Shown piece after piece: positions 8,361-31,831 of a stretch of DNA of 48,678 nucleotides. The stretch comes from Bacilli bacterium (GTDB lineage Bacteria > Bacillota_I > Bacilli_A > JAJDGJ01), in assembly GCA_031272545.1 (NCBI GenBank), contig JAISTP010000014.1, positions 1-48,678 on the forward strand, read 5' to 3'. Every line of letters starts with the position of its first letter. Position 1 is the first letter of the stretch. Under the pieces are notes generated by a model, which saw only the letters and a program-made list of their open reading frames with translations, had not been told where the DNA came from and made no database searches. Made by a program: the position numbers and the translations under genes.

Positions 8361-10358
8361 ATGGAATTAACAAACTTAATTTTTTTAGCACCGATTGCAG
8401 GTATATTATCTATTATTGCAGCATCTTTTTTTGCTTATGATGTTTTGAAAAAAGATGTTGGAGACAAGAGTATGCAAGATATTTCTGCAGCTGTACAAGA
8501 AGGTGCTATGGCTTATTTAAATAAACAATATACTGTTATTGGTATTGTTGGTATTGTTTTAGCCATTATTATTGCCTTTGTTTTAGGTTGGCAAATTGCT
8601 TTAACTTTTATTATTGGAGCTTTACTTTCAGCATCGGCTGGATATATTGGAATGAATGTTTCAGTTAGAGCTAATGTAAGAACAGCAGCAGCAGCCAAAA
8701 ATTCTTTAAAAAATGCTTTAAATGTTGCTTTTAGAGGAGGAGCTGTTACTGGTCTAGCCGTTGTTGGTTTATCATTGCTTGGTGTTTCTTTAATGTATAT
8801 TATTTTTAATGATATTCATTATGTAGTTGGCTTTGGTTTTGGAGCTAGTTTAATTTCTTTATTTGCCAGAATTGGTGGAGGAATATTTACTAAGGCAGCT
8901 GATGTTGGTGCTGATATTGTTGGTAAAGTTGAATCTGATTTAGATGAAGATGATCCTCGTAATCCAGCTACTATTGCGGACAATGTTGGTGATAATGTTG
9001 GTGATTGTGCTGGTATGGGAGCTGATTTATTTGAAACTTATGCGGTTACTTTATTAGCTTCAATGATGATTGGGGCAACAATTGGAGATCAATATGTTGC
9101 TTTCCCATTAATTTTAGGTAGTGCAGCTATCATTGCAAGTATTGTTGCGATTTTCTTTGTTAGACTTGGTAGTGATAATAAAATTATGAAAGCTTTATAT
9201 AAAGGAGTTATTGCCGCTTCAATTATTTCAATTATTTTATTCTTAATTATTGCTTTAGTTGGTTTAAATAATATTAATTACTTCTTTATTACTTTAGTAG
9301 GTATTGCTATTACTTTATTAATGGTTGTCTTTACTGAATATTATACTTCTACTAAATATCGTCCGGTTAAAGAAATAGCGAAAGCTAGTCAAACCGGAGC
9401 AGGTACAAATGTAATTAGTGGTTTATCTTTTGGTTTTGAATCAACTATTTTACCAGTTATTATTATCGTTATTGGAATTTTAGTTTCTTATAGTTTAGGT
9501 GATGGATGGAACAATTCTCTAAATGGTTTATATGCAATTGCGATTGCCGCAGTAGCTATGCTTTCCACAACAGGTGTTATTGTAGCTCTAGATAGTTATG
9601 GTCCTATTACTGATAATGCTGGTGGTATTGCGGAAATGTCTAATCAACCTAAAGAAGTTAGAGTTATTACTGATGAATTAGATGCTGTTGGTAATACTAC
9701 TAAAGCTGTAACTAAAGGTTATGCTATTGGTTCAGCAGCCTTAGGTGCCTTAGCTTTATTTGCGGAATATCGTGATAAAGTTGATGCTCAATTCAGTATT
9801 GATAATCCTCTTGTTTTAGTTGGTTTATTAATTGGAGCTGTCTTACCATTTGCTTTTACTTCATTAACTATGCGTGCTGTTTCACGTGCTGCTTCAAGTG
9901 TTATTTTAGAAGTTAGAAGACAAATTAAAGAATTAGGTATTTTAAATGGTGAAACTAAACCGGAATATGGTAGATGTGTTTCTATTGTTACTAGTGCAGC
10001 TTTAAAAGAAATGATTATTCCTGGAGCTATGGCTGTTATCGTACCTGTTTTAGTTGGTTTGATTTTTGGTTCAGTAGCCTTAGGAGGAACATTAATAGGT
10101 ATTATCGTTGTTGGATTAATGCTTGCTATGACTTTAAACAATGCTGGTGGAGCATGGGATAATGCGAAAAAATTAATTGAAGAAGGAAACTATGGTGGTA
10201 AAGGTAGTGAAGCTCATAAAGCGGCTGTTGTTGGTGATACTGTTGGTGATCCAACTAAAGATACTTCTGGTCCTGGTTTAAATGCTTTAATTAAAGTAGT
10301 AAATATGGTTGCTATTTTAACATTTGCTTTATATACAACAGGTGGTTTATTCTTTTAA
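8361..10358 (+). CDS. hppA: Membrane-bound pyrophosphatase, H+-pumping, predicted K+-independent
   Basis: Hydrolyses pyrophosphate and pumps cations across the membrane, recovering energy from biosynthesis. The 665 aa form about 15-16 membrane helices. The PPi/Mg site motifs are present: GGIFTKAADVGAD, then the paired-Asp motif DNVGDNVGD, and a second acidic cluster near the C-terminus (GDTVGDPTKDTSGP). In GNTTKAVT the key positions are K448 and T451. In this family Ala/Gly at these positions marks K+-dependent enzymes and Lys/Thr marks K+-independent H+ pumps; all known Na+ pumps are K+-dependent. An H+-pumping, K+-independent enzyme is therefore inferred. It is monocistronic, with its own promoter and terminator. 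Confidence 0.95.
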   Translation: MELTNLIFLAPIAGILSIIAASFFAYDVLKKDVGDKSMQDISAAVQEGAMAYLNKQYTVIGIVGIVLAIIIAFVLGWQIALTFIIGALLSASAGYIGMNVSVRANVRTAAAAKNSLKNALNVAFRGGAVTGLAVVGLSLLGVSLMYIIFNDIHYVVGFGFGASLISLFARIGGGIFTKAADVGADIVGKVESDLDEDDPRNPATIADNVGDNVGDCAGMGADLFETYAVTLLASMMIGATIGDQYVAFPLILGSAAIIASIVAIFFVRLGSDNKIMKALYKGVIAASIISIILFLIIALVGLNNINYFFITLVGIAITLLMVVFTEYYTSTKYRPVKEIAKASQTGAGTNVISGLSFGFESTILPVIIIVIGILVSYSLGDGWNNSLNGLYAIAIAAVAMLSTTGVIVALDSYGPITDNAGGIAEMSNQPKEVRVITDELDAVGNTTKAVTKGYAIGSAALGALALFAEYRDKVDAQFSIDNPLVLVGLLIGAVLPFAFTSLTMRAVSRAASSVILEVRRQIKELGILNGETKPEYGRCVSIVTSAALKEMIIPGAMAVIVPVLVGLIFGSVALGGTLIGIIVVGLMLAMTLNNAGGAWDNAKKLIEEGNYGGKGSEAHKAAVVGDTVGDPTKDTSGPGLNALIKVVNMVAILTFALYTTGGLFF

Positions 10359-10567: not shown

Positions 10568-10596
10568 TTGTTAGTAAGTATATGACTTGTTATAAT
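10568..10596 (+). promoter_or_regulatory. Promoter of the glycosyltransferase-YfhO operon
   Basis: TTGTTA at 10568-10573 and a consensus TATAAT at 10591-10596, spaced by 17 bases, lie 40 bases before the ATG at 10637. The rest of the 10406-10636 gap shows nothing else I can assign. Confidence 0.7.
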
Positions 10597-10636
10597 TTAT
10601 TAGTTAAATGTTGGATTGGAGTTAAATAGAAATTTT

Positions 10637-11569
10637 ATGAAGAAGATAAGTATTATTGTTCCTTGTCATAATGAGGAAAAAAATATTTTTCCTTTTATTG
10701 AAAAAATAAATAGTGATTTAAATAATGTTAAAGATGAACTTGAGATAATCTTTGTGAATGATGGCTCAGTGGATAAAACTATTGAAGTTATTAATAAAGT
10801 TATAAAAAATGATTCAAGAGTTAAAGCTCTTGATTTTTCTCGTAATTTTGGAAAAGAAGCAGCTATTTTAGCAGGTATGGATTATTGTGAAGGTGATGCA
10901 GCTATTATTATTGATGCAGATTTACAAATGCCTATTCATTATATTAATGATTTAATTAAGTTATGGCATGATGGTAATAAGTTAGTATTAACGTATAAAA
11001 CAAAAAGAAGTGAAGGTTTTAAAAGTAAATTAGCGGCTAAATATTATGATGTTTATAATAAAATGAGTAATGATAAAATATTAAATGATGCTTTAGATTT
11101 TCAAATTATGGATCGTGAAGTAATTGATGTTATTTGTTCAATGCGTGAAAGAGTTCGCTTTTTTAAAGGATTAACTGGTTATGTTGGTTATAAATATCAA
11201 ATAATACCTATTAATATTGAAGAAAGAAAAGAAGGGACTAGTGATTTTAGTGGTTTAAGTCGTTTATTTAATTATGCTTTTAAATCTTTAGCTGTTCATT
11301 CTAATTTTCCATTAATTCTTGGACTAAGAGCTGGTTTTTTTGTATCTGTTGTGGCCTTAATTTATATGATTTATATTATTATTAAAACCATGATAAAAGG
11401 AGTAGCTGTTCCTGGTTACGCTTCTATTATTGTAATTATGTTATTTATGTTTGCTTTTGTTTTATGTATTTTAGGTATTTTAGGATACTATATTGGTCTT
11501 GTATATCAAGAATGTAAAGATAGACCTAATTATATTATTGATCATATCTATCAACATGAGGAAGATTAA
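10637..11569 (+). CDS. Polyprenyl-phosphate glycosyltransferase (GT2, CsbB/GtrB type)
   Basis: Likely transfers a sugar from a nucleotide-sugar to undecaprenyl phosphate on the inner membrane face. The GT2 fold is shown by ISIIVPCHNEE, FVNDGSVD and DADLQMP (the D-x-D metal site), and the C-terminal third has two membrane helices (about 225-250 and 263-290), as in CsbB, GtrB and DPM synthases. I chose the ATG at 10637, giving 310 aa; a TTG at 10616 would add seven residues, but GGAG at 10618-10621 lies within that extension and is 15 bases from the ATG, somewhat far. The next gene starts three bases later. In Bacillus CsbB works with YfhO to glycosylate lipoteichoic acid. Confidence 0.9.
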   Translation: MKKISIIVPCHNEEKNIFPFIEKINSDLNNVKDELEIIFVNDGSVDKTIEVINKVIKNDSRVKALDFSRNFGKEAAILAGMDYCEGDAAIIIDADLQMPIHYINDLIKLWHDGNKLVLTYKTKRSEGFKSKLAAKYYDVYNKMSNDKILNDALDFQIMDREVIDVICSMRERVRFFKGLTGYVGYKYQIIPINIEERKEGTSDFSGLSRLFNYAFKSLAVHSNFPLILGLRAGFFVSVVALIYMIYIIIKTMIKGVAVPGYASIIVIMLFMFAFVLCILGILGYYIGLVYQECKDRPNYIIDHIYQHEED

Positions 11570-11572
11570 TTT

Positions 11573-14389
11573 ATGGAGTATTTTTTAAAACGACATAAAC
11601 AAGTCATAATTGAAACATTATTATTTTTATTATTCATTATTTTATTTTTATTTATTTTAAGATTAATGGATATTACTATTGGTCGTAATGGTGGTGATTT
11701 TCAAGCGCAACATATTCGCTTTGTCGATTATTTAAGAAATAACTTTTGGCAAACTCATGATTTATTTCCGCAAATTAGTATGAATTATGGTGGTGGGCAA
11801 AACTTTGCGAATCTATACTATCATGGTATGTATAATCCTTTAATTTTATTATCTTATCTATTCCCCTTTATTAATACTTTAGGATGGTTTAGTATTATGG
11901 ATATTATTCTTTTAATTAGTACTTTTTTAGGTATGAATATTTTACTTAGAAAATATCATATTAAAAGAATGATTATCTTAATTATAAGTACTTTAACTGC
12001 TTTATCACCTTGTTTAATTACTCATCTAGCATGGCATCCAATGTTTATATATTATTATCCTTTAATGATTTTTTCTTTAATAAGTATTCATTATTTAATA
12101 AATAATAAAACAATGTGGCATTTTATTATTTTAGTAGCTTTAATTTTTTATACTAATTTTTTCTTTGCTTTAATAATAGGTTTCATGCAATTAATTTTCT
12201 TTATTAGTAATATTCATTTTTATTATAAATTTTCTTTTAATGAAAAGTTAGTACTTTATCGTAAATTAATTTTTTCTTACTTAATAGGTATTTTAATAGG
12301 AATGTTTATTTTTATTCCTCAAGTCAATGTCTTATTAAATAGTGATCGAAGTATTAATAGTATCAAAGAAATTGGGTTATTATACTTTAGAAGTATTTTA
12401 AGTATTAGTGTTGATACTTATAGTATGGGATTAGGGATACTAGGAATATTTACTTTAATATTAGCTTTATTTAATTATAAAAATAAGTTTAATTTAGTTA
12501 TTGCTTTATCAATAATTATTGTCTTGGTATTACAACCATTAATTTATTTACTTAATTTATTTGCTTATGTTAATGTCAAAGTATTTATTTATATGGTTCC
12601 TTTAATATTTTTCATCTTAGCTTTACAATTAAATGATGATAGGCTTAAATGTAAAAAGATTGCTTTAATATTAGCTATTATCTTTACAATTATTAGTATT
12701 ATTAAAGTATATAGTTTAAATGAAGTAAATGTAGCATCAAATTTTATGACTAAATTTAATATTAATTTCTTAGTGATATATGTTTTATTTCAATTAACTT
12801 TATTAGTTTTATTATTAAGTAAAAAGCTTATTAAAAAAAGAAATTTAATTATTATTAATTTTTTTTTAGTAATTATTTTTACTATTATTTATAGTTGTCA
12901 TTTTTTAAGTATTAAAGAATATCAAAAACAAGTATTACCAAATAATATTAAAAATAGTATTTTAAAACAATTAGAGAACAGTAATGATTTTTATTATACT
13001 AATCTTACTAATAACTTTATTAATGATATTGATATTTTCTCACCTACTTTCTATAGTTCTACTGAAAATAATAATTTTGTGAATTTTTATAATCATTATC
13101 TTGATTTAGAAAAAACTTCATTTCAAAGAGTAGTTAGTGAAAATGTAATTGATAATTATTTAATGACTAATTTTTTAGGAGTAAAAAATCAATATAGTAA
13201 TAATAAAATTAATGAATATTATCCTTCACATTCTTTTATTTATGGTGTTAGTAATGATAATGTCTATAATATTAAATATTTAGATAAATTAGATTCTTTT
13301 AAACGTATTATTGCTTTAAATGAAGGATTTTTTAGTGATGATACTAATAAAGAATTTAAGTATCAAGATATTGAGATGAAACAAATATATCAAAGTAATA
13401 AAAGAATTAATGTGAAAAAAGGATATAAATTTAATTATTCAATTCCATCACAATATCAAAGAAAAGGTATCTTTATTATTCGATCTAAAGTTATTAATAA
13501 TAAAATAGATAAAGGTTATATGAAAGTTAATAATCATAGAACAGTAATAAAACCTTTTAATAAAGCTTATAATGAGTCAGAAGTAAATAAAGCTTTAATA
13601 ATTATAGATAATGATGGTAGTGAAAAAAATTTAAAGTTTGAATTTAATAAACAAGATAATATCTATCAAGGTTTAGATATTAAGTTTATTGATTATCAAG
13701 ATATTGTTAATAATCAATTTAAAGTATATTATCCTACTAATATTAATAATAAATTTAATCATTCTTATTCATTTACTATTAATATGAAAAAAGATGGTTA
13801 TTTAGCTACTTCATTATTTTATGATGATGGATTTACTATTTATGATAATAATAAGCAACTTAATATTAAAAAAGTAAATAAGTATTTTTTAGGAGCTAAA
13901 CTTAGTCAAAAAGAACATAAGATTATCATTTCATATCATATTCCTTATTTTAAAGTGGGATTATCTTTAAGTATTATTGGTATCTTTATTTTAGGTTTAA
14001 TCATAGTAAATGAAGTAAAGATTTTTAATAAATCATTTTTTCGCTTTATGATTGTTGGTGCTTTTAATACCATTAATTATTATTTTGCTTATTTATTATT
14101 ACTTAATTTCTTACCTTATTTATTAGCTCATGTTTTAGGATTCATTTATAGTGCTTTTGTTTCTTATTTCTTAACCAGTATCTATACTTTTAAACGTAAA
14201 CCTACTTTAAAAACATTTATTGCTTTTCCTTTAACTTTCTTGCCTAATCTTTTACTTAGTAGTGTTGGAACTACTTTAATAGTTGAAATAGGTTTATTAA
14301 GTAAATCAATTGCATCTTTAGTAGTAATGATTTTAATTATTCCGATTACTTATTTAATTAATCGTTTAATTTTTAAAAAAAATAAATAA
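11573..14389 (+). CDS. YfhO-family membrane glycosyltransferase fused to a C-terminal GtrA flippase-like domain
   Basis: A 938-aa multi-spanning protein. Residues 1 to about 420 hold some ten or more membrane helices with the YfhO-type first outside loop (IGRNGGDF, FVDYLRNN, MNYGGG). About 430-790 is a large polar, probably extracellular domain. Residues 820-938 are a separate GtrA-like domain of four helices beginning FFRFMIVGAFNT, with TSIYTFKR after the third helix. YfhO/GtlB proteins transfer a sugar from a polyprenyl carrier to wall or lipoteichoic acid, and GtrA/GtcA proteins are thought to flip that carrier; here both sit in one chain. The gene lies between a CsbB-type enzyme (gap 3) and a second YfhO (gap 14). 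The acceptor polymer is unknown. Confidence 0.85.
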   Translation: MEYFLKRHKQVIIETLLFLLFIILFLFILRLMDITIGRNGGDFQAQHIRFVDYLRNNFWQTHDLFPQISMNYGGGQNFANLYYHGMYNPLILLSYLFPFINTLGWFSIMDIILLISTFLGMNILLRKYHIKRMIILIISTLTALSPCLITHLAWHPMFIYYYPLMIFSLISIHYLINNKTMWHFIILVALIFYTNFFFALIIGFMQLIFFISNIHFYYKFSFNEKLVLYRKLIFSYLIGILIGMFIFIPQVNVLLNSDRSINSIKEIGLLYFRSILSISVDTYSMGLGILGIFTLILALFNYKNKFNLVIALSIIIVLVLQPLIYLLNLFAYVNVKVFIYMVPLIFFILALQLNDDRLKCKKIALILAIIFTIISIIKVYSLNEVNVASNFMTKFNINFLVIYVLFQLTLLVLLLSKKLIKKRNLIIINFFLVIIFTIIYSCHFLSIKEYQKQVLPNNIKNSILKQLENSNDFYYTNLTNNFINDIDIFSPTFYSSTENNNFVNFYNHYLDLEKTSFQRVVSENVIDNYLMTNFLGVKNQYSNNKINEYYPSHSFIYGVSNDNVYNIKYLDKLDSFKRIIALNEGFFSDDTNKEFKYQDIEMKQIYQSNKRINVKKGYKFNYSIPSQYQRKGIFIIRSKVINNKIDKGYMKVNNHRTVIKPFNKAYNESEVNKALIIIDNDGSEKNLKFEFNKQDNIYQGLDIKFIDYQDIVNNQFKVYYPTNINNKFNHSYSFTINMKKDGYLATSLFYDDGFTIYDNNKQLNIKKVNKYFLGAKLSQKEHKIIISYHIPYFKVGLSLSIIGIFILGLIIVNEVKIFNKSFFRFMIVGAFNTINYYFAYLLLLNFLPYLLAHVLGFIYSAFVSYFLTSIYTFKRKPTLKTFIAFPLTFLPNLLLSSVGTTLIVEIGLLSKSIASLVVMILIIPITYLINRLIFKKNK

Positions 14390-14403
14390 AAAAGGAGAAA
14401 TTT

Positions 14404-16842
14404 ATGAAGAAGTTATTAAAAAATGAGATTTTCTTAGAGGTAATAATATTTACTTTGATTTTGAGTTTATTATTTATCATTATGAATTTAACTCATTATA
14501 CTTTTGGCCGTTCTGGAGGTGATTTTGCTCTTCAACATACTGTTTTTATTGACTATTTAAGAAATTCTTTTTCTAAAACTCATAATCTATTGCCTGACGT
14601 TATTTTTAATTATGGTAGCACCATAAATGCAGCTACATTATATTACTATGGTTTAATTAATCCTTATATTATTTTATCTTATTTATTTCCACATGTTTCT
14701 ACTATTTATGTTTTACAGTTTAATGTTTTTTTAACAATAGTTTTATCATTTACTTTTTTTAGAATATTAATTTGTAAATTTGTCAATAATAAACTTATCT
14801 GTTTAAGTCTTTCTTTATTAGTAGCTTTTAGTCCAATAGCATGTTATGAGTTTTCGGTACATACAATGTTTTTATATGTTATACCTTATTTTATTCTTTC
14901 TTTACTTGCTATTGAAAGAGTTATTAATAAAGATAAATACGGGTTATTAATATTTACTTGTTTGATGATTTTAAATTTGAATTTCTTTTATATGGTGGTA
15001 ACTGGTTTTATACAAGTAATATTTTTTCTTATTATCGCTAGGTACTATATTGATATTTCACATCAAGAAATTAAAGTAAAGTTTTTTAAGTTAATAGTTA
15101 CTTATTTTATCATTATTCTTTTATCAATGTTTTTTATCTTACCACAGTTAATGTTAATTAAAGATGGAGCAAGAACTGGTATTATTACTGAAATTAATTT
15201 ATATTATAATTTTTGGATTAATGCAACGACTTATTCATCTAATAATTTAGGACTGGGTATTATTACTATTTTTGTTATCATTGGTTGTTTATTAAATTTT
15301 AATAATAAACTATTGAGATATTTTGTTATTTTTATTTTATTATCTTTTATTTTTGAACCTTTAAATTTATTATATAACTGCTTTTTATATGTTGATCCTA
15401 AAATATTTATGGCTTTTATGCCGATTATTATGCTTGTTTTAGGAATATTATTAGAACAAAGCAATAAATTACAATTATCAATTTCTTTATTAGTTTCAAC
15501 TTTGATAATTTTATTATTTTTTATAGTAAGTAAAGATAGTATTAAGTATTTTATTTCTCATTCAATTGCTTTTGGTACAATAAAGGAGCATATTTTTAGT
15601 ATTATAGTATTTATAATTTTACAAATAATCTATATATTATTGATTATTGATTTACCTTTTAATAAAAAATTAAATTATAATTTAATTACCTTATTGCTTT
15701 GTATTTTAATAAGTATGTTAAACATTTATCACAATACTGCCTTTATTAATAAAAAAGTATTTAGTCAAACTGTACTTACAAAGAAAAAAAAGGATTTTGT
15801 TAATAATAAAACAATTAATGAATTGTATCGTCAAGTTAATAAAACTAATGTAGTTAATGCTATTAATGAATATAATCCTTTAGTTTATACTTCATTAGTT
15901 AATAATAATTTTCTATCTTTTTATAATGATTATTTAATTTTAGAAAGACACACAGCTGGTAATAGATTAATCAATAATAATATTATGAGTAATTCACTTA
16001 CTAAATCTATAATGAGCATTAAAAATAATAATATTATTACTAGACCATTTATTTATGGCATTTATGATAGTGAAATTAGTAACATTGATATAAATGAGAT
16101 CAATAAAGATGAGCGAATTTTTAATATGGCGACTAAATTTATGATTAATAATGATAAATATCATTCAAGTAGTACTAGATTTAATTTAATTGATGTAGCA
16201 GATATTGATATTAATAAATTTAAAAACAAAAATAATGTTTTAGAATATTATTTTGAAGTGCCTGAAAAATATCAAGGAAATGGTATCTTTTTAATTACTA
16301 GTTTTGTAAAAAATGAAAATATCGCTAATGCTATTATTAGAGCTAATAATGATGTTACTGGTGTTCGTCCAATTAATCATTATGGTGAAAAAGAAGTAAG
16401 AGATATTAATATGTATTTAGATGTTACTAAGAAGATGAAGAAAATGAAACTAGCAATTAATAATAAATTAAATGACTATAGCAATTTTAAAATAAAATTT
16501 ATTTCATATCAGGATATTAATAGTAAACAAGTTAAATTTATTACCCCAGAAGATATTAAAATTAAATATAATGATAATTATCAAGTTAGTCTTGATTTAA
16601 AAGAAGATGGTTACTTAGGTACTACTATTTTTTATGATAATAATTTTATTATAAAAGATAATAATAAAATTATTGCTACTGAAAAAGTTAATGAATTTTA
16701 TTTAGGAGCTAAATTAAATAAAGGTAAGCATAATATTATTATTGAATATAAAATGGCTGGAAAAAATGTGGGCTTAATTATCTCAATAATTGGAGTAATA
16801 ATAACTATAAGTATTTATCTTTATCGAAGAAAAAAGAGTTAG
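14404..16842 (+). CDS. Second YfhO-family membrane protein, without GtrA domain
   Basis: An 812-aa paralogue of the preceding protein, recognisable throughout: FGRSGGDFALQH, FIDYLRNSF and FNYGS near the N-terminus, about 11-12 membrane helices to residue 435, a polar domain with FYNDYLILERHTAGNR, and a near-C-terminal DGYLGTTIFYD segment matching DGYLATSLFYD in its neighbour. It ends with one membrane helix and the tail YRRKKS, so no GtrA domain is attached. A GGAG ribosome site precedes the ATG. It probably uses the same lipid-linked sugar with a different acceptor or linkage; this is inference from the shared operon. Confidence 0.82.
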   Translation: MKKLLKNEIFLEVIIFTLILSLLFIIMNLTHYTFGRSGGDFALQHTVFIDYLRNSFSKTHNLLPDVIFNYGSTINAATLYYYGLINPYIILSYLFPHVSTIYVLQFNVFLTIVLSFTFFRILICKFVNNKLICLSLSLLVAFSPIACYEFSVHTMFLYVIPYFILSLLAIERVINKDKYGLLIFTCLMILNLNFFYMVVTGFIQVIFFLIIARYYIDISHQEIKVKFFKLIVTYFIIILLSMFFILPQLMLIKDGARTGIITEINLYYNFWINATTYSSNNLGLGIITIFVIIGCLLNFNNKLLRYFVIFILLSFIFEPLNLLYNCFLYVDPKIFMAFMPIIMLVLGILLEQSNKLQLSISLLVSTLIILLFFIVSKDSIKYFISHSIAFGTIKEHIFSIIVFIILQIIYILLIIDLPFNKKLNYNLITLLLCILISMLNIYHNTAFINKKVFSQTVLTKKKKDFVNNKTINELYRQVNKTNVVNAINEYNPLVYTSLVNNNFLSFYNDYLILERHTAGNRLINNNIMSNSLTKSIMSIKNNNIITRPFIYGIYDSEISNIDINEINKDERIFNMATKFMINNDKYHSSSTRFNLIDVADIDINKFKNKNNVLEYYFEVPEKYQGNGIFLITSFVKNENIANAIIRANNDVTGVRPINHYGEKEVRDINMYLDVTKKMKKMKLAINNKLNDYSNFKIKFISYQDINSKQVKFITPEDIKIKYNDNYQVSLDLKEDGYLGTTIFYDNNFIIKDNNKIIATEKVNEFYLGAKLNKGKHNIIIEYKMAGKNVGLIISIIGVIITISIYLYRRKKS

Positions 16843-16932: not shown

Positions 16933-17904
16933 ATGTTATTAGATCCAATGATTAAAGAAATTAAAGGTAAAAAATTAAAAATAGTTTTAACTGAAGGACA
17001 TGATCCTCGTGTTCTTGAAGCAGCTAGTAAGTTATTAGCTGAAGATTTAGTAGTGCCAGTTTTAATTGGTGATGTTAAAGTTATTGAAGATTTAGCAAAA
17101 GAAAAAGGTTGGGATATTTCTGGTGCTGAAATGATTGATGTTGCTACTTATGATAAGTTTGATGAAATGGTTAGTACAATGGTTGAATTAAGAAAAGGAA
17201 AACAAACTGCTGAAGAATGTGCTAAATTATTAAAACAAACTAATTATTTTGGAACATTAATGGTTAAGATGGGTATGGCTAATGGTTTGGTTGGTGGAGC
17301 TACTTATTCAACTGCTGATACAGTTAGACCTGCTCTTCAATTAGTTAAAACAAAACCAGGTAGTAAATCAGTTTCAAGTGGTTTAGTTCTTTATAAAGAT
17401 GATGAAAGTGAAAAATATGTTTGTGGTGATTGTGCTATTGCGATTGATCCAACTAGTGATGAATTAGCTGAACTTGGTTGTGAATTAGCTAAGACTGCTC
17501 GTATGTTTGGTATTGATCCTCGTGTTGCTTTCTTATCTTATTCGACAAAAGGTAGTGGTAAAGGTGATGCAGTCACAAAAGTAGTAGAAGCTGTTAAAAA
17601 AGTTGATGAAATGAATGTTGACTTTGAATATGATGGTGAATTACAATTTGATGCAGCCTTTGTACCTGAAGTTGGTCAATTAAAATCACCAGGATCAAAA
17701 GTAGCTGGTCATGCTAATGTCTTTGTTTTTCCTGAAATTCAATCAGGTAATATTGGTTATAAAATGGTTCAAAGATTAGGGAAATTTAATGCCTTAGGAC
17801 CAATCTTACAAGGATTAAATGCACCTATTAATGATTTAAGCCGTGGATGTTCAACACGTGATGTTTATGAAATGTGCATCGTAACTGCTGCTCAAAGTAT
17901 TTAA
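16933..17904 (+). CDS. pta: Phosphate acetyltransferase
   Basis: Interconverts acetyl-CoA and acetyl-phosphate, the step before acetate kinase makes ATP in fermenters. The 323-aa protein is the short Pta form without the N-terminal DRTGG region. Family segments are visible: VLTEGHDPRVLEAA near the start, MGMANGLVGGATYSTADTVR mid-chain, SYSTKGSGKGDAV, and FVFPEIQSGNIGYK. No acetate kinase is in the window. An SDR-family dehydrogenase starts 13 bases after it and probably shares the transcript. It pairs functionally with the pyruvate:ferredoxin oxidoreductase encoded about 5 kb away. Confidence 0.95.
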   Translation: MLLDPMIKEIKGKKLKIVLTEGHDPRVLEAASKLLAEDLVVPVLIGDVKVIEDLAKEKGWDISGAEMIDVATYDKFDEMVSTMVELRKGKQTAEECAKLLKQTNYFGTLMVKMGMANGLVGGATYSTADTVRPALQLVKTKPGSKSVSSGLVLYKDDESEKYVCGDCAIAIDPTSDELAELGCELAKTARMFGIDPRVAFLSYSTKGSGKGDAVTKVVEAVKKVDEMNVDFEYDGELQFDAAFVPEVGQLKSPGSKVAGHANVFVFPEIQSGNIGYKMVQRLGKFNALGPILQGLNAPINDLSRGCSTRDVYEMCIVTAAQSI

Positions 17905-19917: not shown

Positions 19918-19930
19918 ATATGCATGGTGT

Positions 19931-19936
19931 TATAAT
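19931..19936 (+). promoter_or_regulatory. -10 element before the MoaC-like gene
   Basis: TATAAT lies 22 bases before the ATG at 19959, allowing a very short leader with ribosome site AGGGAG. No good -35 element at 17 bases. Confidence 0.45.
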
Positions 19937-19958
19937 ACATATAGGGAGTGATAAAAAT

Positions 19959-20408
19959 ATGAATGATGAGAGATTAAATATTAATGATAAAGAAGATGAA
20001 TTAAGATATGCTAAAGCTCATGGGATTATTAAAATAAGACCAGAAGTAATTAAAAATATTTATGATAATAATATTGATAAAGGTAATGTTTTAAGTATAG
20101 CGCAAGCAGCTGGTATGATGGCTGTAAAGAATGCAGCTAATTTAATTCCAATGGCTGTTAATGTTCAAATATTAGGTAGTAAGATTAGTTTTGTGAAAAA
20201 CTATGATAATATTGAATGTATTTGTGAAGCACAAAGTGTTGGTAGCATTGATATTGAAATGGAAGTTATTACAGGTGTTAGTTTAGCATTAATTACTATT
20301 TATGAAATGTGTAAGAATTTAGATCAGGGAATGGTAATTAGTGAAATAAAATTAATTGAAAAACTTAGTGGTATTAAGAATAATCGTATTGAAAAAAAGG
20401 GGGATTAA
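19959..20408 (+). CDS. MoaC-like protein lacking the catalytic histidine
   Basis: A 149-aa homologue of cyclic pyranopterin monophosphate synthase, the second step of molybdopterin synthesis. The alignment by eye is clear: IAQAAGMMAVKNAANLIP, then DIEMEVITGVSLALITIYEMCK and GMVISEIKLIEK. R16, K41, E100-M101 and K119 match functional positions, but the LCHPL motif holding His77 of E. coli MoaC reads MAVNV here (V67 at the His position), and the active-site Asp of YDMCK is Glu116. The start at 19959 follows AGGGAG; an ATG at 19920 adds 13 residues but precedes the -10 element. No other molybdopterin gene is in the window. It is probably not a normal MoaC. Confidence 0.75.
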   Translation: MNDERLNINDKEDELRYAKAHGIIKIRPEVIKNIYDNNIDKGNVLSIAQAAGMMAVKNAANLIPMAVNVQILGSKISFVKNYDNIECICEAQSVGSIDIEMEVITGVSLALITIYEMCKNLDQGMVISEIKLIEKLSGIKNNRIEKKGD

Positions 20409-21410: not shown

Positions 21411-22706
21411 TTATTTGTTATTTTTCATTTCTTCATATTTTTTAGTCATAAATGCACCTAATCTTTTACATCCAGCTTCAATAGTAGCTTCATCGATAGC
21501 ACCATAAGCTAAACGCATACAATTAGTTATATGTTTATCACCTTCTTGGTAAACAAATGATTTTTCACCTGTGATATAAGCACATTTACATTCAGGTGTT
21601 TCTCTTGCTTCCATTAATAATTTTTCAGTATCCATTCCTTCAGGTAAAGTTACCCAACAGAACAAACCACCTTCAGGAGTTGTTCTTTTAGTTCCTTCAG
21701 GGAAGTATTTATCAATACCATCCATTAATGCTTGGCAACGAGGACGATAAATATCAGCAATTCGTTTTACTTGATTAGCAAATAATCCTCTTCTAAAATA
21801 TTCAGCTAAAATACATTGTTGTAACATTGGTGTATGTGAGTTAGTTGCAATTGAAATATCAATAATTTTTTGAAGAATTCTAGGTTCTGCAACACAATAT
21901 CCTAATCTTAAACCAGGAGCAAATGTTTTTGAGAATGAATTAATTAAAATGACATTTCCTGATTTATCAAATCCTTTAATAGGAGTAATATCAGTTCCAT
22001 GGAATCTAATATCACGATATGGATCATCTTCAAGAACAAACATATCATATTGTTCAGCTAATTGTGCAATTTTTTCTCTTCTTTCTCTTGAAAGAGTTCT
22101 TCCTGATGGATTTTGGAATGTTGGAATTGTATAAAGCATTTTAGGATTATATTTCTTAATTTTAGCTTCTAAATCTTCAATGATAATTCCATTTTCATCC
22201 ATATCAACACCAACTTGTTTGATACCATATAAATCAAAAATTAATTCTGCTTGGATAAATGTAGGATTTTCTACTAAGACAACATCACCAGCATTCATAC
22301 ATGCTTGTACTGTCATACCTAATCCACCAATACCACCTACTGTAATTAAAATATCATCTGCAGTTACATGAACTCCTTTTGGAGCTAATAATTCTTTAGC
22401 GATACTTTCTCTTAATTCTCTTTTTCCTTCAACTGGTCCATATCCTAAACATTCTAACCAATTTTCAGGATTGTTTAATAAATCTGTTGCAATTTTTGCA
22501 ATATCTTCATGAGGGATTGCTTGAACTGCTGGAGATCCAATAGTGAATTTAATTACTTCTGGATCAGGTATTTTTTCAAATAAAATACGATTGTCAAAGG
22601 CTGTACCTACAATATCGTCCATTCTTTTGGCTAATGCTGGCTCTTTAGCGGCTGCCATATAAGCCTTAGCATCAACTGCACTTTCTTTTTTAGATAATTC
22701 TGCCAT
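21411..22706 (-). CDS. PLP-dependent aminotransferase, fold type I (2-aminoadipate/aromatic type)
   Basis: A 431-aa class I/II aminotransferase. Visible landmarks are the GG-x-G-GLGMTVQA cofactor loop, the TIPTFQNPSGRTLS segment, EDDPYRDIRF, and the PLP lysine in NSFSKTFAPGLRLGY, then the GGLFCWVTLP C-terminal strand with the carboxylate-binding Arg in CMRLAYG. This pattern matches the LysN/2-aminoadipate and MocR-related group, with no DNA-binding domain attached. The amino-donor is uncertain. I start at the ATG (codon 22704-22706), which AAAGGAAG precedes by seven bases; the longer frame begins with TTG in front of that site. A good promoter lies upstream. Confidence 0.88.
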   Translation of the reverse strand: MAELSKKESAVDAKAYMAAAKEPALAKRMDDIVGTAFDNRILFEKIPDPEVIKFTIGSPAVQAIPHEDIAKIATDLLNNPENWLECLGYGPVEGKRELRESIAKELLAPKGVHVTADDILITVGGIGGLGMTVQACMNAGDVVLVENPTFIQAELIFDLYGIKQVGVDMDENGIIIEDLEAKIKKYNPKMLYTIPTFQNPSGRTLSRERREKIAQLAEQYDMFVLEDDPYRDIRFHGTDITPIKGFDKSGNVILINSFSKTFAPGLRLGYCVAEPRILQKIIDISIATNSHTPMLQQCILAEYFRRGLFANQVKRIADIYRPRCQALMDGIDKYFPEGTKRTTPEGGLFCWVTLPEGMDTEKLLMEARETPECKCAYITGEKSFVYQEGDKHITNCMRLAYGAIDEATIEAGCKRLGAFMTKKYEEMKNNK

Positions 22707-22773
22707 AATTATGCTTCCTTTCAATTTATAAATATTCTTAGAATACTATCTATTTGAATAATAATTCTTCTTA

Positions 22774-23148: not shown

Positions 23149-26100
23149 ATGAAACAAAAAAAAGTAATGATGGATGGTAATACTGCTGCTTCTTATATTT
23201 CTTATGCTTTTACTGAAGTTGCAGGAATTTTCCCAATCACACCTTCATCTGTTATGGCAGAATTAGTTGATGAATGGGCTGCTAATGGTAAGAAAAATAT
23301 CTTTGGACAACCTGTTGAAGTTATTGAAATGCAATCTGAAGGTGGAGCTGCTGGTACAGTTCACGGTTCATTACAAGCTGGGGCACTAACTACTACTTAC
23401 ACTGCCTCTCAAGGATTATTATTAATGATTCCTAATATGTATAAAATTGCTGGAGAAATGCTTCCAGGTGTTTTCCATGTTTCTGCACGTACTTTAAGTG
23501 CGCATGCATTATCAATTTTTGGTGATCATTCAGATGTTATTGGATGTAGAAATACTGGATTTGCTTTCTTAGCTTCTGGTTCACCACAAGAAGTTATGGA
23601 TTTAGGAGCTGTTGCTCATTTAAGTGCTATTAAAGCTAGAATGCCATTTTTACATTTCTTTGATGGATTTAGAACATCTCATGAAATGAATACTATTGAA
23701 GCTTTAGATTATGATGAATTAGCTAAATTAATTGATTATGATCAATTAGATGCTTTTAGAAAAAATGCATTAAATCCTGATCATCCAGTAACAAGAGGAA
23801 CTACTGTTAATCCTGATATTTTCTTCCAATCTCGTGAAGCTTGTAATAAAGCTGTAAATGCAATTCCTGAAATTGTAGAACACTATATGGGTGAAATTAA
23901 GAAATTAACTGGTAGAGAATATAATCTATTTGATTTATATGGAGCAAAAGATGCAGAAAGACTTATCATTATGATGGGCTCTGGTGCTGAAACTGCTAAA
24001 GAAGTTGTAGATTATTTAGTAGAAAAGGGAGAAAAAGTTGCTTTATTAGATGTTAGACTTTATCGTCCATTCTCTAAAAAACATTTCTTAGCTGCTGTTC
24101 CTAAAACAGTTAAAAAGATTGCGACATTAGATCGTTTAAAAGAACCTAATGGTTTAGGTGAACCATTATACCAAGATGTTTGTACTGTTTATAAACAAGA
24201 AGGTATCGATATGGAAATTGTTGGTGGACGTTATGGTTTATCTTCAAAAGATACAACTCCAGAACAAATCTTAGCTGTATTTGAAAACTTAAAAGAAGCT
24301 ACTCCTAAAGATAACTTTACTATTGGTATTGTGGATGATGTTTATAATACTTCATTAGAATTGCCTGCTCCAATTAATACAACACCAGCTGGTGAAAAAG
24401 GATGTAAAATTTGGGGAATGGGTTCTGATGGTACTGTTGGTGCTAATAAGAATACCGTAAAAATCATTAATGAAACTACTGATTTAAATGCTCAAGCTTA
24501 TTTCGTTTATGATTCTAAGAAATCTGGCGGTTTAACTCAATCTCATTTAAGATTTGGTACTGCACCTATTAGATCACCATATTTAGTAAATAAAGCTGAT
24601 TTTGTTGCATGTCATACTCAAGCTTATGTTTATAAATATGATATGGTTAAAGATTTAAAAGAAAATGGTATTTTCTTATTAAATTGTAATTGGTCAGATG
24701 AAGAATTAGATGCTAATTTACCTGATTCTATGAAGAAAGCTTTAGCTGATAAAAATGCTCGTTTATATATTATTGATGCTGTAGCAATTGCTAAAAAGAT
24801 TGGTTTAGGAAATAGAATTAATACTATTCTTCAAGCTTCATTCTTCAAATTAACAGACATTATTCCTATTGATGATGCTGTTAAAGAAATGAAAGAAGCT
24901 ATCTATAAAACTTATTTCATTAAAAAAGGTCAAAAAATTGTTGATTTAAATAATGAATCTATTGACTATGGAATTACTGAATTACACGAAGTTAAAATTC
25001 CTGAAGCATGGAAAAATATTACAGTTAAACCTGTTGAAGAAAATGTACCTGATTTCATTAAAGATGTTGTTAATGTTATGAACCGTCAAGAAGGAGATAA
25101 CATTCCAGTATCTACAATTATGAAATATAAACTTGAAGATGGTACTTGGTATGCTGGTACAACTAAATATGAAAAACGTGGAGCAGCTGCTGATGTTCCT
25201 GAATGGAACATTGATAATTGTATCCAATGTAATATTTGTTCATTAGTTTGTCCTCATGCTGCTATTAGACCAGTTTTATTAGACGAAGCTGAAAAAGCTA
25301 AAGCACCTGCTGATTTTACAACTAAGAAAGCTATAGGACCTGGATTAGATAAATATGAATATCGTATTCAAGTATCTCCATATGATTGTACAGGTTGTGG
25401 TGTTTGTGTTAATGCTTGCCCAGCTAAAGAAAAAGCAATTGTTATGGAACCATTGGCTAGTCAATTAGATCAAGCTGATAATTGGACATTTGCCGTTGAA
25501 GATGTAGAAATTAAGAAAGATGCAGTTAACCATAATACTGTTAAAAATTCTCAATTTGCCAAACCTTACTTTGAATTCTCTGGAGCATGTGCTGGTTGTG
25601 GAGAAACTCCATATATTAAATTAGTTACTCAATTATTTGGAGATCATATGTATATTGGTAATGCTTCTGGATGTTCTTCTGCTTATGGTGGTTCTACTCC
25701 AGCAACTCCTTATTGTGATGATAAATGTGGACGTGGGCCTGCTTGGGCTATGTCACTATTCGAAGATAATGCTGAATATGTTTTAGGATTTAAATTAGGT
25801 TATGAAGCTGTTAGAAGACGTTCTAAAGCTTATGTTGAAGATTTAATTGCTAAAGGTGTATGTAAAGCTGAAGGTGAAGCTTATTTAGCTGCTTATAATG
25901 ATTCTGCAAAAAGTGATGAAACTTCTAAAGCTTTAGTTGCTGCTTTAAAAGCAAGTAATGATGCTAGTGAAGCTGCTAAATATATCATTGACAATGCTGA
26001 TTATTTAGCTCGTAAATCATTCTGGGCCTTTGGTGGAGATGGATGGGCATATGACATTGGTTATGGTGGATTAGATCATGTTATTGCTACTGGTGAAGAT

Positions 26101-26667
26101 GTTAATATTTTAGTATTAGATACTGAAGTATATTCTAATACTGGTGGACAATCTTCTAAATCTACTAATACTGCTGCTGTTGCAAAATTCTCTGCTGGTG
26201 GTAAAGAAACTAAGAAGAAAGATTTAGGTTATATGGCTATGTCTTATGGTTAGGTATATGTTGCTCAAATTGCTATGGGTTATGACATGAACCAAGCTTT
26301 AAAAGCTATTAGAGAAGCAGAAGCTTATCCAGGACCTTCAATTATTATTGCTTACTCTCCATGTATTGAACATGGTATTAAGAAACAAATGAGTAAATCT
26401 CAAATTGAAGCTAAGGAAGCTGTTGAATGTGGTTACTGGCATACTTATAGATTTAATCCTTCACTAAAAGCTGAAGGTAAAAATCCATTTACTTTAGATT
26501 CTAAAGAACCAGATTTAAGTAAATTAGAAGACTTTATCTTAGGTGAAAACAGATATGCATCATTAAAGATTGCATTCCCTGACAAAGCACAAAGATTATA
26601 TGACAAAGCTAAGAAAGATGCTGCTGATCGTTTAGATTTATATAAATCTTTAGCAGCACAAAAATAA
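23149..26667 (+). pseudogene. nifJ: Pyruvate:ferredoxin oxidoreductase, interrupted by one in-frame TAG
   Basis: PFOR oxidises pyruvate to acetyl-CoA and CO2, reducing ferredoxin. The frame encodes 1,172 residues, the normal length for the single-chain enzyme, but codon 1035 (26251-26253) is TAG where homologues have Tyr; TAT to TAG is one base. Visible parts: N-terminal pyrimidine-binding domain, two ferredoxin-type clusters (C691/694/697/701 and C747/750/753/757), the proximal cluster ligands C814, C817 and C842, and the TPP domain with GDGWAYDIGYGG. The fourth proximal ligand, C1072 in SPCIEHG, lies after the stop, so a 1,034-aa product should be inactive. No strong ribosome site precedes the ATG at 26275. 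Alternatives are sequencing error, strain mixture or suppression. Confidence 0.9.
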
Positions 26668-26690: not shown

Positions 26691-28178
26691 ATGGCTTTAA
26701 TGACTGGTGAACAATACATTGAAAGTTTAAGAAAACTTAATACAAAAGTTTATATGTTTGGTGAAAAGGTAGATAATTGGGTAGATCATCCAATTATCCG
26801 CCCATCAATTAATTCAGTTGCTATGACTTATGATTTAGCACAAATGCCTGAATATCAAGATTTAATGTTAGCAGATTCTAACATTCTTCCAGGTAAAAAA
26901 GTAAACCGTTTTACTCATTTACATCAATCAACTGATGATTTGATTAAAAAAGTAAAAATGCAAAGATTACTTGGTCAAAAAACTGCTTCATGTTTCCAAA
27001 GATGTGTTGGTATGGATGCATTTAATGCAGTATACTCAACTACTTATGAAATAGATGAAGCTCATGGAACTGACTATCATAAAAGATTTATTGAATTCTT
27101 AAAAATGGTTCAAGAAAATGATTATACTGTTGATGGAGCAATGACTGATCCAAAAGGTGATCGTGGATTAGCACCACATGCGCAAGCAGACCCTGATTTA
27201 TTCTTACATATTGTAGAATATCGTGAAGATGGAATTGTTGTACGTGGAGCTAAAGCTCATCAAACTGGTTCTATTAATTCTCATTGGCACATTATTATGC
27301 CTACTATTGCAATGAAAGAAGAAGATAAAGATTATGCAGTTGCTTTTGCAGTTCCTAGTGATGCAGAAGGACTATTTATGATTTATGGTCGTCAAAGTTG
27401 TGATTGGCGTAAAATGTTAGATGGAAATAATTCTATTGATGTTGGTAATAAACAATTTGGTGGTCAAGAAGCATTAGTTGTTTTTGATGATGTATTTGTT
27501 CCAAATGAATACGTTTTCATGGCTGGTGAATATGATTTTGCTGGAATGTTAGTTGAAAGATTTGCTGGATATCATCGTCAATCTTATGGTGGATGTAAAA
27601 CTGGTGTTGGAGATGTCTTAATCGGTGCTGCTGCATTAGCTGCTGAATATAATGGTGCTGCTAAAGCGAGCCATGTTAAAGATAAACTTATTGAAATGGT
27701 TCACTTAAATGAAACAATGTATAGTTGTGGAATTGCATGTTCATGTCAAGGTTCCCAAACAAAATCAGGTAACTATGAAATTGATTATATGCTAGCAAAT
27801 GTTTGTAAGCAAAATGTTACAAGATTCCCTTATGAAATTACTCGTTTAGCTGAAGATATTGCTGGTGGATTAATGGTTACAATGCCTGCTGAAATTGATT
27901 TTGTATCAAAAACTAAAGTTGATACTAAAGCAGGTATGTCTATTGGTGAATGGACTACTAAATATTTCAAAGGTGTTAATGCTGTTTCAACTGAAAATAG
28001 ACAAAGAATCTTACGTTTAATAGAAAATATGTGTTTAGGAACTGCTGCTGTAGGATATCGTACTGAATCATTACATGGTGCAGGTTCTCCTCAAGCACAA
28101 AGAATTATGATTTCACGTCAAGCTAATATGCCTGCCAAAATCTCTTTAGCAAAAATTATTGCTGGAATTAAGGAATAA
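26691..28178 (+). CDS. abfD: 4-hydroxybutyryl-CoA dehydratase / vinylacetyl-CoA isomerase
   Basis: Uses a [4Fe-4S] cluster and FAD to convert 4-hydroxybutyryl-CoA to crotonyl-CoA by a radical route. The 495 aa match AbfD of Clostridium aminobutyricum, and the cluster ligands keep their spacing: C101 and C105 in SCFQRC, H295 and C302 in HRQSYGGC (C99, C103, H292 and C299 in that enzyme). The fold is of the acyl-CoA dehydrogenase/HpaB type, with HQTGSINSHWH near the flavin. A very strong AGGAGG ribosome site lies 23 bases after the PFOR end. No transferase or semialdehyde dehydrogenase for the 4-hydroxybutyrate route is in the window. Confidence 0.92.
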   Translation: MALMTGEQYIESLRKLNTKVYMFGEKVDNWVDHPIIRPSINSVAMTYDLAQMPEYQDLMLADSNILPGKKVNRFTHLHQSTDDLIKKVKMQRLLGQKTASCFQRCVGMDAFNAVYSTTYEIDEAHGTDYHKRFIEFLKMVQENDYTVDGAMTDPKGDRGLAPHAQADPDLFLHIVEYREDGIVVRGAKAHQTGSINSHWHIIMPTIAMKEEDKDYAVAFAVPSDAEGLFMIYGRQSCDWRKMLDGNNSIDVGNKQFGGQEALVVFDDVFVPNEYVFMAGEYDFAGMLVERFAGYHRQSYGGCKTGVGDVLIGAAALAAEYNGAAKASHVKDKLIEMVHLNETMYSCGIACSCQGSQTKSGNYEIDYMLANVCKQNVTRFPYEITRLAEDIAGGLMVTMPAEIDFVSKTKVDTKAGMSIGEWTTKYFKGVNAVSTENRQRILRLIENMCLGTAAVGYRTESLHGAGSPQAQRIMISRQANMPAKISLAKIIAGIKE

Positions 28179-30213: not shown

Positions 30214-30240
30214 AAAAAACGTGATTTAATCACGTTTTTT
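30214..30240. terminator. Bidirectional terminator between hsp20 and the LCP gene
   Basis: AAAAAACGTGATT and its complement around a one-base centre; it overlaps the LCP stop codon. Confidence 0.88.
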
Positions 30241-31831
30241 AATTACTTGTTTTTGATATTGTTTCAACTTTTGTTGAATCATAAGGCATTTTTTGTTCTT
30301 TTAATGGATTAGTACCATCATCATTACTAGGAGTACTTCCTAAGACATAATATGAATTTGAAGGTAATTGTGGTTTATCAAGATTTAAATTAACATCCAT
30401 ACGATAGGTAGCATAGGCTATATCAGTTTCACTTGGAAAAACCATTGATTGAGCACCTATCATTCCTGTACTACCTGAGATATATAATTTTTCAATTTGT
30501 AAGTTCATACCATTACTTAAAATTGATTCATAGATTGTAGTAATATCATTTTTTGATAAATCAGTACTCATATACTTTGAAGCTGCACTCATTAATTTAT
30601 TTACTGTTTGTAGTGAGTTAATAGAAGTAACTTTTTTAATGATTGCTTCGATTACTAACTGCTGGTTACGACCTCGATAGAAATCACCGCCATCCTGATT
30701 ATGTCTATTTCTAGCAAAGGCTAAAGCTGTTTCACCATCCATGTGATTAACTTTTCCTTCTATCCAACATTCAGCATCATAATCTCCATGTGAGTCTTGT
30801 TCACAGACTTTAACTCCAGAACCATTTAGATTATTTACTGGAACATTAATATCAATTCCGCCAAGACTATTAATAATATCGACAACTCCAACAAAGTTAA
30901 TTCTTAATGTATAGTCAATATCAATATCATACATATTTTCTAACGTTGATTTTAAACACTCTGTTCCACCATAAGCTGCAGAATGCGTTAATTTATCTCT
31001 TGTATTATTTAAACATGTTATTGGTACATAACTATCTCTAGGAGTTGATAGTGTTGTAATACGTCCGGTTTTAGTATTTACCGTTACGATAATATTAGAA
31101 TCACCATTAGCTACTTCATCGACATCGGAACTTCTTGAATCTATCCCTGATATTAAAATAGTGAATGGCTTATCAGTAATAGTTTTTGTAGCATCACTAT
31201 TTTTTTGTTTAGCTTCAAATGTTGTAATAATCTTATAATCATCTTTAGCATTTTTATCAATACTTAATAAAGTTGCATCAGATAATGATTTTATCGCTAT
31301 TAAATCTACTTTATCATCATTTAAGGCAGTAATAGCTTTTTTTATATCGGTATATATCTTAATATCTTGTGTCTTATTTAATTTATCAATTTGTTCTTTC
31401 GCAAATGCACCATTTTCATAAGAATTTATATCTTGTATTCCAATTGAAGTACTTGAATTTATATCATCAACACTATTAATAGCACTATCTTTTTTAGCTA
31501 TTAAACTTGTTGAATAAGTAATTTCAGCATTCTTATTCATTTTAGATAACAAATTATTATAAGAAAATAATACGGTATTTATTTGATAAAAGCCAAATAA
31601 TAGAGCTAATCCTACAATAATTGATATTGTTTTTTGCCACCATTTATTAAAGAATTTATTAAATAAGAAATTAATAAAGATGATAAAACAAAATAAGATA
31701 AAAGCTAGAATAATAAATTTATTAATTGTACTTAATTTCATAGATGGAAATGAATAAATAAAGTTTATTAAAGTAGCTATTGATATTAAAGATAAGATAA
31801 TTATTAAAATAAATCTTAGTTTTTTATTCAT
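30239..31831 (-). CDS. LytR-CpsA-Psr (LCP) family phosphotransferase with an extra solute-binding-like domain
   Basis: LCP enzymes attach teichoic acid or polysaccharide from a lipid carrier to peptidoglycan. This 530-aa protein has three N-terminal membrane helices (about 7-27, 38-60 and 69-88), then a region of about 130 residues (STSIGIQDINSYENG, DDKVDLIAIKSL) resembling a small periplasmic-binding-type domain, and the LCP domain from about 225: ILISGIDSRS, then TLSTPRDSYVPI with the phosphate-binding Arg, a D-K-L-T-H-S-A-A-Y-G segment, and ALAFARNRHNQDGGDFYRGRNQQ. It is a single gene, with a TATAAT on the minus strand at 31857-31862. Confidence 0.88.
   Translation of the reverse strand: MNKKLRFILIIILSLISIATLINFIYSFPSMKLSTINKFIILAFILFCFIIFINFLFNKFFNKWWQKTISIIVGLALLFGFYQINTVLFSYNNLLSKMNKNAEITYSTSLIAKKDSAINSVDDINSSTSIGIQDINSYENGAFAKEQIDKLNKTQDIKIYTDIKKAITALNDDKVDLIAIKSLSDATLLSIDKNAKDDYKIITTFEAKQKNSDATKTITDKPFTILISGIDSRSSDVDEVANGDSNIIVTVNTKTGRITTLSTPRDSYVPITCLNNTRDKLTHSAAYGGTECLKSTLENMYDIDIDYTLRINFVGVVDIINSLGGIDINVPVNNLNGSGVKVCEQDSHGDYDAECWIEGKVNHMDGETALAFARNRHNQDGGDFYRGRNQQLVIEAIIKKVTSINSLQTVNKLMSAASKYMSTDLSKNDITTIYESILSNGMNLQIEKLYISGSTGMIGAQSMVFPSETDIAYATYRMDVNLNLDKPQLPSNSYYVLGSTPSNDDGTNPLKEQKMPYDSTKVETISKTSN

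Follow-up and report, generated by a model that had tools for sequence, protein, structure and literature searches.

Three consecutive genes on the plus strand, at positions 10637-16842, were found in the window, the whole 48,678-nt stretch of Bacilli DNA that was analysed (host genome 1.32 Mb, 97.9% complete). They encode a GT2 glycosyltransferase, a YfhO-GtrA fusion protein and a solo YfhO protein (Table 1). The GT2 and fusion genes are separated by 3 nt and the fusion and solo YfhO genes by 14 nt containing an AAGGAG site; these short gaps together with the site are consistent with an operon. The candidate promoter is proposed from its position alone, as promoter-like matches did not exceed their frequency in shuffles. 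The upstream neighbour, a pyrophosphatase gene (8361-10358), and the downstream neighbour, a phosphotransacetylase gene (16933-17904), were excluded from the system; the neighbours differ in two related genomes, G001 and G002. No acceptor or nucleotide-sugar gene lies within the operon.

Table 1. Positions of the genes, domains and candidate promoter in the window
Feature	Position	Strand	Basis or remark
Candidate extended -10 promoter, TTGTTA-17-TG-TATAAT	10568..10596	+	Upstream of the GT2 gene
Predicted polyprenyl-phosphate GT2, GtrB/PgfS/CsbB-like, 310 aa	10637..11569	+	PF00535, GtrB homology
YfhO-GtrA fusion, GT-C type transferase with C-terminal GtrA, 938 aa	11573..14389	+	Pfam
YfhO domain of the fusion, residues 22-800	11636..13972	+	Pfam PF09586
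Short linker, residues 813-823, presumably cytoplasmic	14009..14041	+	Similar in all three genomes
GtrA domain of the fusion, residues 824-933	14042..14371	+	GtrA_DPMS_TM PF04138
Solo YfhO, 812 aa, tandem paralogue of the fused YfhO	14404..16842	+	Pfam PF09586

Elsewhere in the window, a MoaC-like gene (19920-20408) scored below the MoaC equivalog cut-off, and no other molybdopterin genes were recognised among the window proteins scanned. The HpaB-family protein encoded at 26691-28178 scored far below the monooxygenase cut-offs. Its gene lies close to that of a pyruvate:ferredoxin oxidoreductase (23149-26253), and the protein may be one of the anaerobic members of its family, for instance a relative of 4-hydroxybutyryl-CoA dehydratase. 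The best models of an aminotransferase-like protein (21411-22724) were MocR-type regulators, of which only the aminotransferase part was matched.

The GT2 gene starts with the ATG at 10637, an in-frame TTG at 10616 also being possible. A Pfam scan matched its product to Glycos_transf_2 (E 4e-26), and searching for PDB homologs revealed the GtrB protein sll0501 (5ekp, E 1e-63 over residues 3-305), with ArnC structures also matching along its length. The DADLQ motif is kept and two TM helices are predicted at the C-terminus. The best NCBIfam model was PgfS (NF047588; 234.5 bits, below its 500-bit cut-off). These features fit a polyprenyl-phosphate sugar synthase, and charging of the lipid carrier is proposed as the function of this protein. 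Only one close CsbB/PgfS-like GT2 is encoded in the genome, the runner-up matching with 78 bits over 114 residues; one lipid-linked donor, as proposed in the initial annotation, is therefore likely.

In the fusion protein both YfhO (E 1.5e-34, 119.9 bits, cut-off 28.5) and GtrA (E 3e-16, 60 bits, cut-off 26.1) were matched, the latter at the C-terminus of the first YfhO protein, where it had been assigned. The YfhO domain comprises a TM bundle at the N-terminus, whose first extracellular loop carries GDFxxQH, a large extracytoplasmic part (approximately residues 445-792) and a last TM helix at 795-813. Four helices are predicted in the GtrA domain (820-846, 854-874, 879-905 and 911-934). As the last YfhO helix is predicted to end inside and the GtrA N-terminus is expected inside, the predicted topology agrees with cytoplasmic N- and C-termini of the GtrA domain. 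The terminal stop is the only in-frame stop and GC3 is uniform, in agreement with a single gene and not a frameshifted pair, and a whole-genome scan gave one GtrA match, the fused domain, so that the proposed lack of a separate gtrA was confirmed. Structure prediction of the full-length fusion from four sequences was unusable beyond secondary structure (pLDDT 47); a model of the C-terminal 149 aa (pLDDT 63) contained four helices, with dolichol-phosphate mannose synthase 5mlz as its best PDB match (E 0.32). 5mlz was the best PDB match of the GtrA domain by sequence as well as by structure. It is likewise a natural fusion with a GtrA-like TM domain, which is however carried by a cytoplasmic GT2, whereas here it is carried by an extracytoplasmic GT-C enzyme.

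The solo protein matched YfhO over residues 17-794 (E 3e-17, 63.0 bits, cut-off 28.5) and gave no GtrA match, as expected for a second YfhO without GtrA. The whole genome contains exactly two YfhO matches, both in this operon. GDFxxQH with an invariant aspartate (D42/D40) is present in both YfhO paralogues of two genomes. Functionally required Asp residues occur in the first extracellular loop of GT-C enzymes, as shown for GtlB (PMC5836110), and by analogy the aspartate of GDFxxQH may be catalytic.

Conservation of the fusion within the order

Among the four genomes of the order, the fusion was present in each of the three near-complete ones, and the fourth genome (62% complete) gave no GtrA match. 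The fusion proteins of 938 aa (window), 931 aa (G001) and 924 aa (G002) aligned end to end, those of G001 and G002 being 48-51% identical to the window protein. Identity between genomes reached 68-77% in the GtrA part and 43-48% in the YfhO part; invariant columns made up 62% of GtrA and at most 50% of any YfhO block of equal length. GtrA is thus the most conserved part of the fusion, which argues for strong constraint on the fused domain and against a relic. Searching genome contigs with the alignment gave the G001 record as the only match, and searching them with the single protein gave none.

A GT2 gene adjoins the fusion gene in all three genomes whereas the flanks differ: as named from sequence, uvrB lies beyond the solo YfhO gene in G001, and trigger factor and lon lie beyond the fusion gene in G002. 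The GT2 and fusion genes therefore constitute a conserved unit. The solo YfhO gene follows the fusion gene in the window and in G001 and is missing at the G002 locus. In G002 a GtrII-family gene (PF14264, L034:13042-14604) is located on the other side of the GT2 gene and possibly replaces the second transferase.

In the YfhO tree the five sequences of the window lineage, fused and solo, grouped together (100/100), with the three fused ones forming a group within them (93/90). A yfhO gene duplicated in tandem next to one GT2 and one GtrA is a recurrent arrangement: besides the window lineage it was found in G070 of family f8, whose fused and solo YfhO are sisters (96/97), and in G174 of family f13, which has a gtrA-GT2-yfhO-yfhO operon (L082:1602-7903).

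Recurrence of YfhO-GtrA fusions in the class

A class-wide scan of 395 genomes gave GtrA matches in 188 and YfhO matches in 139. Long frames containing GtrA were retrieved from the class genomes and then scanned for YfhO, which revealed YfhO-GtrA fusions in at least three further families, f8, f11 and f10. In G070 (the single f8 genome in which the fusion was found, 85% complete) a 1095-aa fusion is followed by a 940-aa solo YfhO, with the GT2 gene divergent upstream. In G082 (f11, 75% complete) a GT2 gene lies immediately downstream of a 1053-aa fusion; in its relative G073 the GtrA match (24.5 bits) was just below the cut-off. In G110 (f10) a fusion fragment was found at a contig end.

The four fused lineages occupied separate places in the GtrA tree, requiring a minimum of four changes, and the YfhO tree, built without the f10 fragment, required a minimum of three. 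A single origin of all fusions, with the fused YfhO sequences held together, was rejected by the AU test (lnL difference 725, p-AU 3e-65). The trees thus indicate that the fusion arose independently at least four times in the class, a count that is a lower bound. A junction-profile search of a phylum-wide sample gave full-length matches in this order and G110 only, which suggests that the fusion is rare; among the matches listed there were none outside the class. No description of a YfhO-GtrA fusion was found in the openly licensed literature.

In five other f8 genomes without the fusion the GT2 gene is divergent from a yfhO-gtrA pair overlapping by 4-19 nt, and in three f13 genomes the genes are arranged in the order yfhO-gtrA-GT2 with overlaps of 17-50 nt. 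In all eight unfused relatives the overlapping yfhO and gtrA genes are in different frames. As the two genes are often overlapping neighbours, fusion would be an easy step, and the fusions plausibly replaced such overlapping pairs. In families f10 and f21 GtrA further occurs at one or the other end of different membrane proteins: DUF6020 proteins (L038:3925-5862, L041:4737-6887), unnamed polytopic proteins (L036:3385-5901, L037:2228-4552) and a GT1-containing protein (L035:2-2512).

Proposed glycosylation system and the role of the fused GtrA domain

Three-component systems of this kind have been published (PMC8035078, PMC7389260, PMC5836110). The CsbB/GtcA/YfhO systems of B. subtilis, S. aureus and L. 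monocytogenes likewise contain a polyprenyl-phosphate GT2, a GtrA-family protein and a YfhO GT-C protein (PMC5836110, PMC7389260, PMC8035078). In the window, however, flippase and transferase are one polypeptide, YfhO occurs in tandem, and all genes belong to one operon. The same logic of GtrA, GtrB and an extracytoplasmic GT-C enzyme is found in the GtrA/GtrB/Gtr(type) serotype-conversion modules of Shigella phages (PMC7389260, PMC11127046), and the likeness extends to the GtrII-family gene beside the GT2 gene of G002; the present system differs by its Bacilli host, its YfhO transferase and its fused flippase. We regard it as likely that the operon encodes a three-component transmembrane glycosylation system in which flippase and GT-C transferase are fused and a second transferase has arisen by tandem duplication. 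Pfam agrees with the initial annotation in that the three roles would be encoded by two genes, those of the GT2 and the fusion, with the roles assigned from sequence.

In the proposed mechanism the GT2 would load a sugar from a nucleotide donor onto undecaprenyl phosphate at the inner face of the membrane. The GtrA domain, perhaps dimeric and hence making the whole fusion dimeric, would move the lipid-phosphate-sugar across the membrane. Within the same chain, the YfhO part would then receive it in its GT-C active site and transfer the sugar to a surface polymer. The solo YfhO may be supplied from this flipped pool as well and modify a second acceptor or form a second linkage; flippases that each supply several GT-C enzymes have been described, namely GtcA in Listeria and CflA in Lactococcus (PMC5836110, PMC7389260, PMC8035078).

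An LtaS-like protein with a sulfatase fold (607 aa, 294 bits, cut-off 970) and five TagF/TagB-like matches were found in the genome. There are also two GT4 enzymes, as would be expected if MraY is accompanied by a TagO-like enzyme, and an LCP ligase is encoded within the window (30239-31831). Given these LtaS-like, TagF-like, TagO-like and LCP genes, the acceptors are probably teichoic-acid-type polymers, and since LtaS-like and TagF-like proteins are both encoded, it is plausible that the two YfhO proteins serve two acceptors or linkages. No MBOAT protein was found in the three genomes, and thus no recognisable DltB.

Protein O-glycosylation like that of the S. mutans Pgf system, in which the acceptor would differ and the basic chemistry would be the same, is an unlikely alternative. 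In the Pgf operon, too, a single PgfS-like GT2 precedes two large membrane proteins resembling GT-C enzymes, and the targets are surface proteins (PMC5856776); PgfS is the best NCBIfam match of the GT2 described here. Nevertheless, this match remains at 234 bits against the cut-off of 500, and higher PgfS scores (320 bits) are reached by the GT2 proteins encoded in other yfhO-gtrA operons, so the model appears mainly to mark a wider GT2 group. Moreover, PgfM1 is described as PMT-2 and not as YfhO, the present system differs by its GtrA fusion, and its operon contains no PgfE epimerase. Assignment to the Pgf system was rejected because of score and gene content.

The assignment of the GtrA domain as a flippase was examined at the residues that are more than 99% conserved in 1000 GtcA homologues, A65, N69, V73, F74, F91, R95, K121 and N132 (PMC7389260). 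GtcA numbering was transferred by residue spacing on the f10 protein L077, which keeps all ten tested GtcA positions, and not by aligning GtcA itself. In the window lineage the corresponding residues are S, T, T, F, F, F, S and T, so that the complete set is absent from this lineage; it is present in the f10 and f11 fusions and in most f13 proteins. In Listeria GtcA, R95A and N132A abolished glycosylation of both LTA and WTA, K121A affected LTA, F74A and F91A affected WTA, and A65S, N69A and V73A were silent (PMC7389260). The equivalents of F74 and F91 are retained here, whereas residues matching R95, K121 and N132 are lacking, R95 and N132 being replaced by F and T. Flipping by the fused domain is therefore suggested by family membership only; for GtcA itself, PMC7389260 and PMC11127046 give no biochemical evidence of flipping.

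Much of the window-lineage pattern is however shared with stand-alone GtrA relatives from families f2 and f10, and stand-alone and fused GtrA proteins of f8 share another pattern (N, S, T, F, F, H, P, N). The divergent residues thus seem to distinguish subfamilies and not to reflect degeneration of the domain once it was fused. GtrA subfamilies with distinct conserved polar sets were observed, a GtcA type with A/N/R/K/N and an f8/f11 set with N/S/H/P/N; the loci of the two subfamilies are L010, L012-L014, L016, L020, L021, L040 and L078 versus L004, L065, L075-L077 and L080-L082.

The GtrA domain could instead serve for anchoring or dimerisation and keep the GT-C enzyme, possibly together with the GT2, in a complex; flipping would then fall to a different protein or to the GT-C enzyme. 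The replacement of two residues essential in GtcA would agree with this, and repeated fusion to GT-C enzymes fits binding as well as flipping; an anchor role recruiting AftA has been argued for M. tuberculosis Rv3789 (Kolly 2015 and Brecik 2015, as cited in PMC7389260). On the other hand, the paralogue and most YfhO proteins have no fused GtrA, and as stand-alone relatives share the divergent residues, function need not be lost. Furthermore, Listeria and B. subtilis lose glycosylation when gtcA is deleted, and a flippase is the interpretation preferred in that study (PMC7389260). We consequently give the anchor role a low probability and prefer a flippase domain.

It is extremely improbable that the fusion is an artefact in which misassembly or a frameshift linked two adjacent genes. 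One indel could join the overlapping yfhO and gtrA genes of unfused relatives, and for the f8 fusion, which was found in one genome, this would be conceivable. For the present lineage such an artefact is ruled out: the in-frame join is the same and the linker similar in three genomes, which belong to two genera and have diverged by about 50% overall, and there is no internal stop and GC3 is uniform.

The YfhO-GtrA fusion is a real, conserved and convergently evolved variant of such three-component systems, built of known parts in a rare but recurrent architecture. Independent repeated fusion suggests that the GtrA and YfhO parts normally work in contact. The direct channelling of the lipid-linked sugar from GtrA to YfhO that the initial annotation had proposed gains from the repeated fusions and the overlapping yfhO and gtrA genes and remains plausible, whereas its flippase component is weakened by the replacement of the R95 and N132 equivalents. 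Possibly, although we advance this only tentatively, GtrA and GT-C proteins generally form fixed complexes with direct hand-over that the fusions expose, the GtrA of this order using a residue set other than that of GtcA. As a putative single-chain flippase-transferase containing the sole GtrA detected in its genome, the protein could be expressed from one gene at a fixed stoichiometry, so that flipping and transfer could be measured in the same assay and point mutations in the two halves cross-tested. Whether GtrA proteins act as flippase or anchor, and whether they contact GT-C enzymes, are questions that can be addressed with this fusion.
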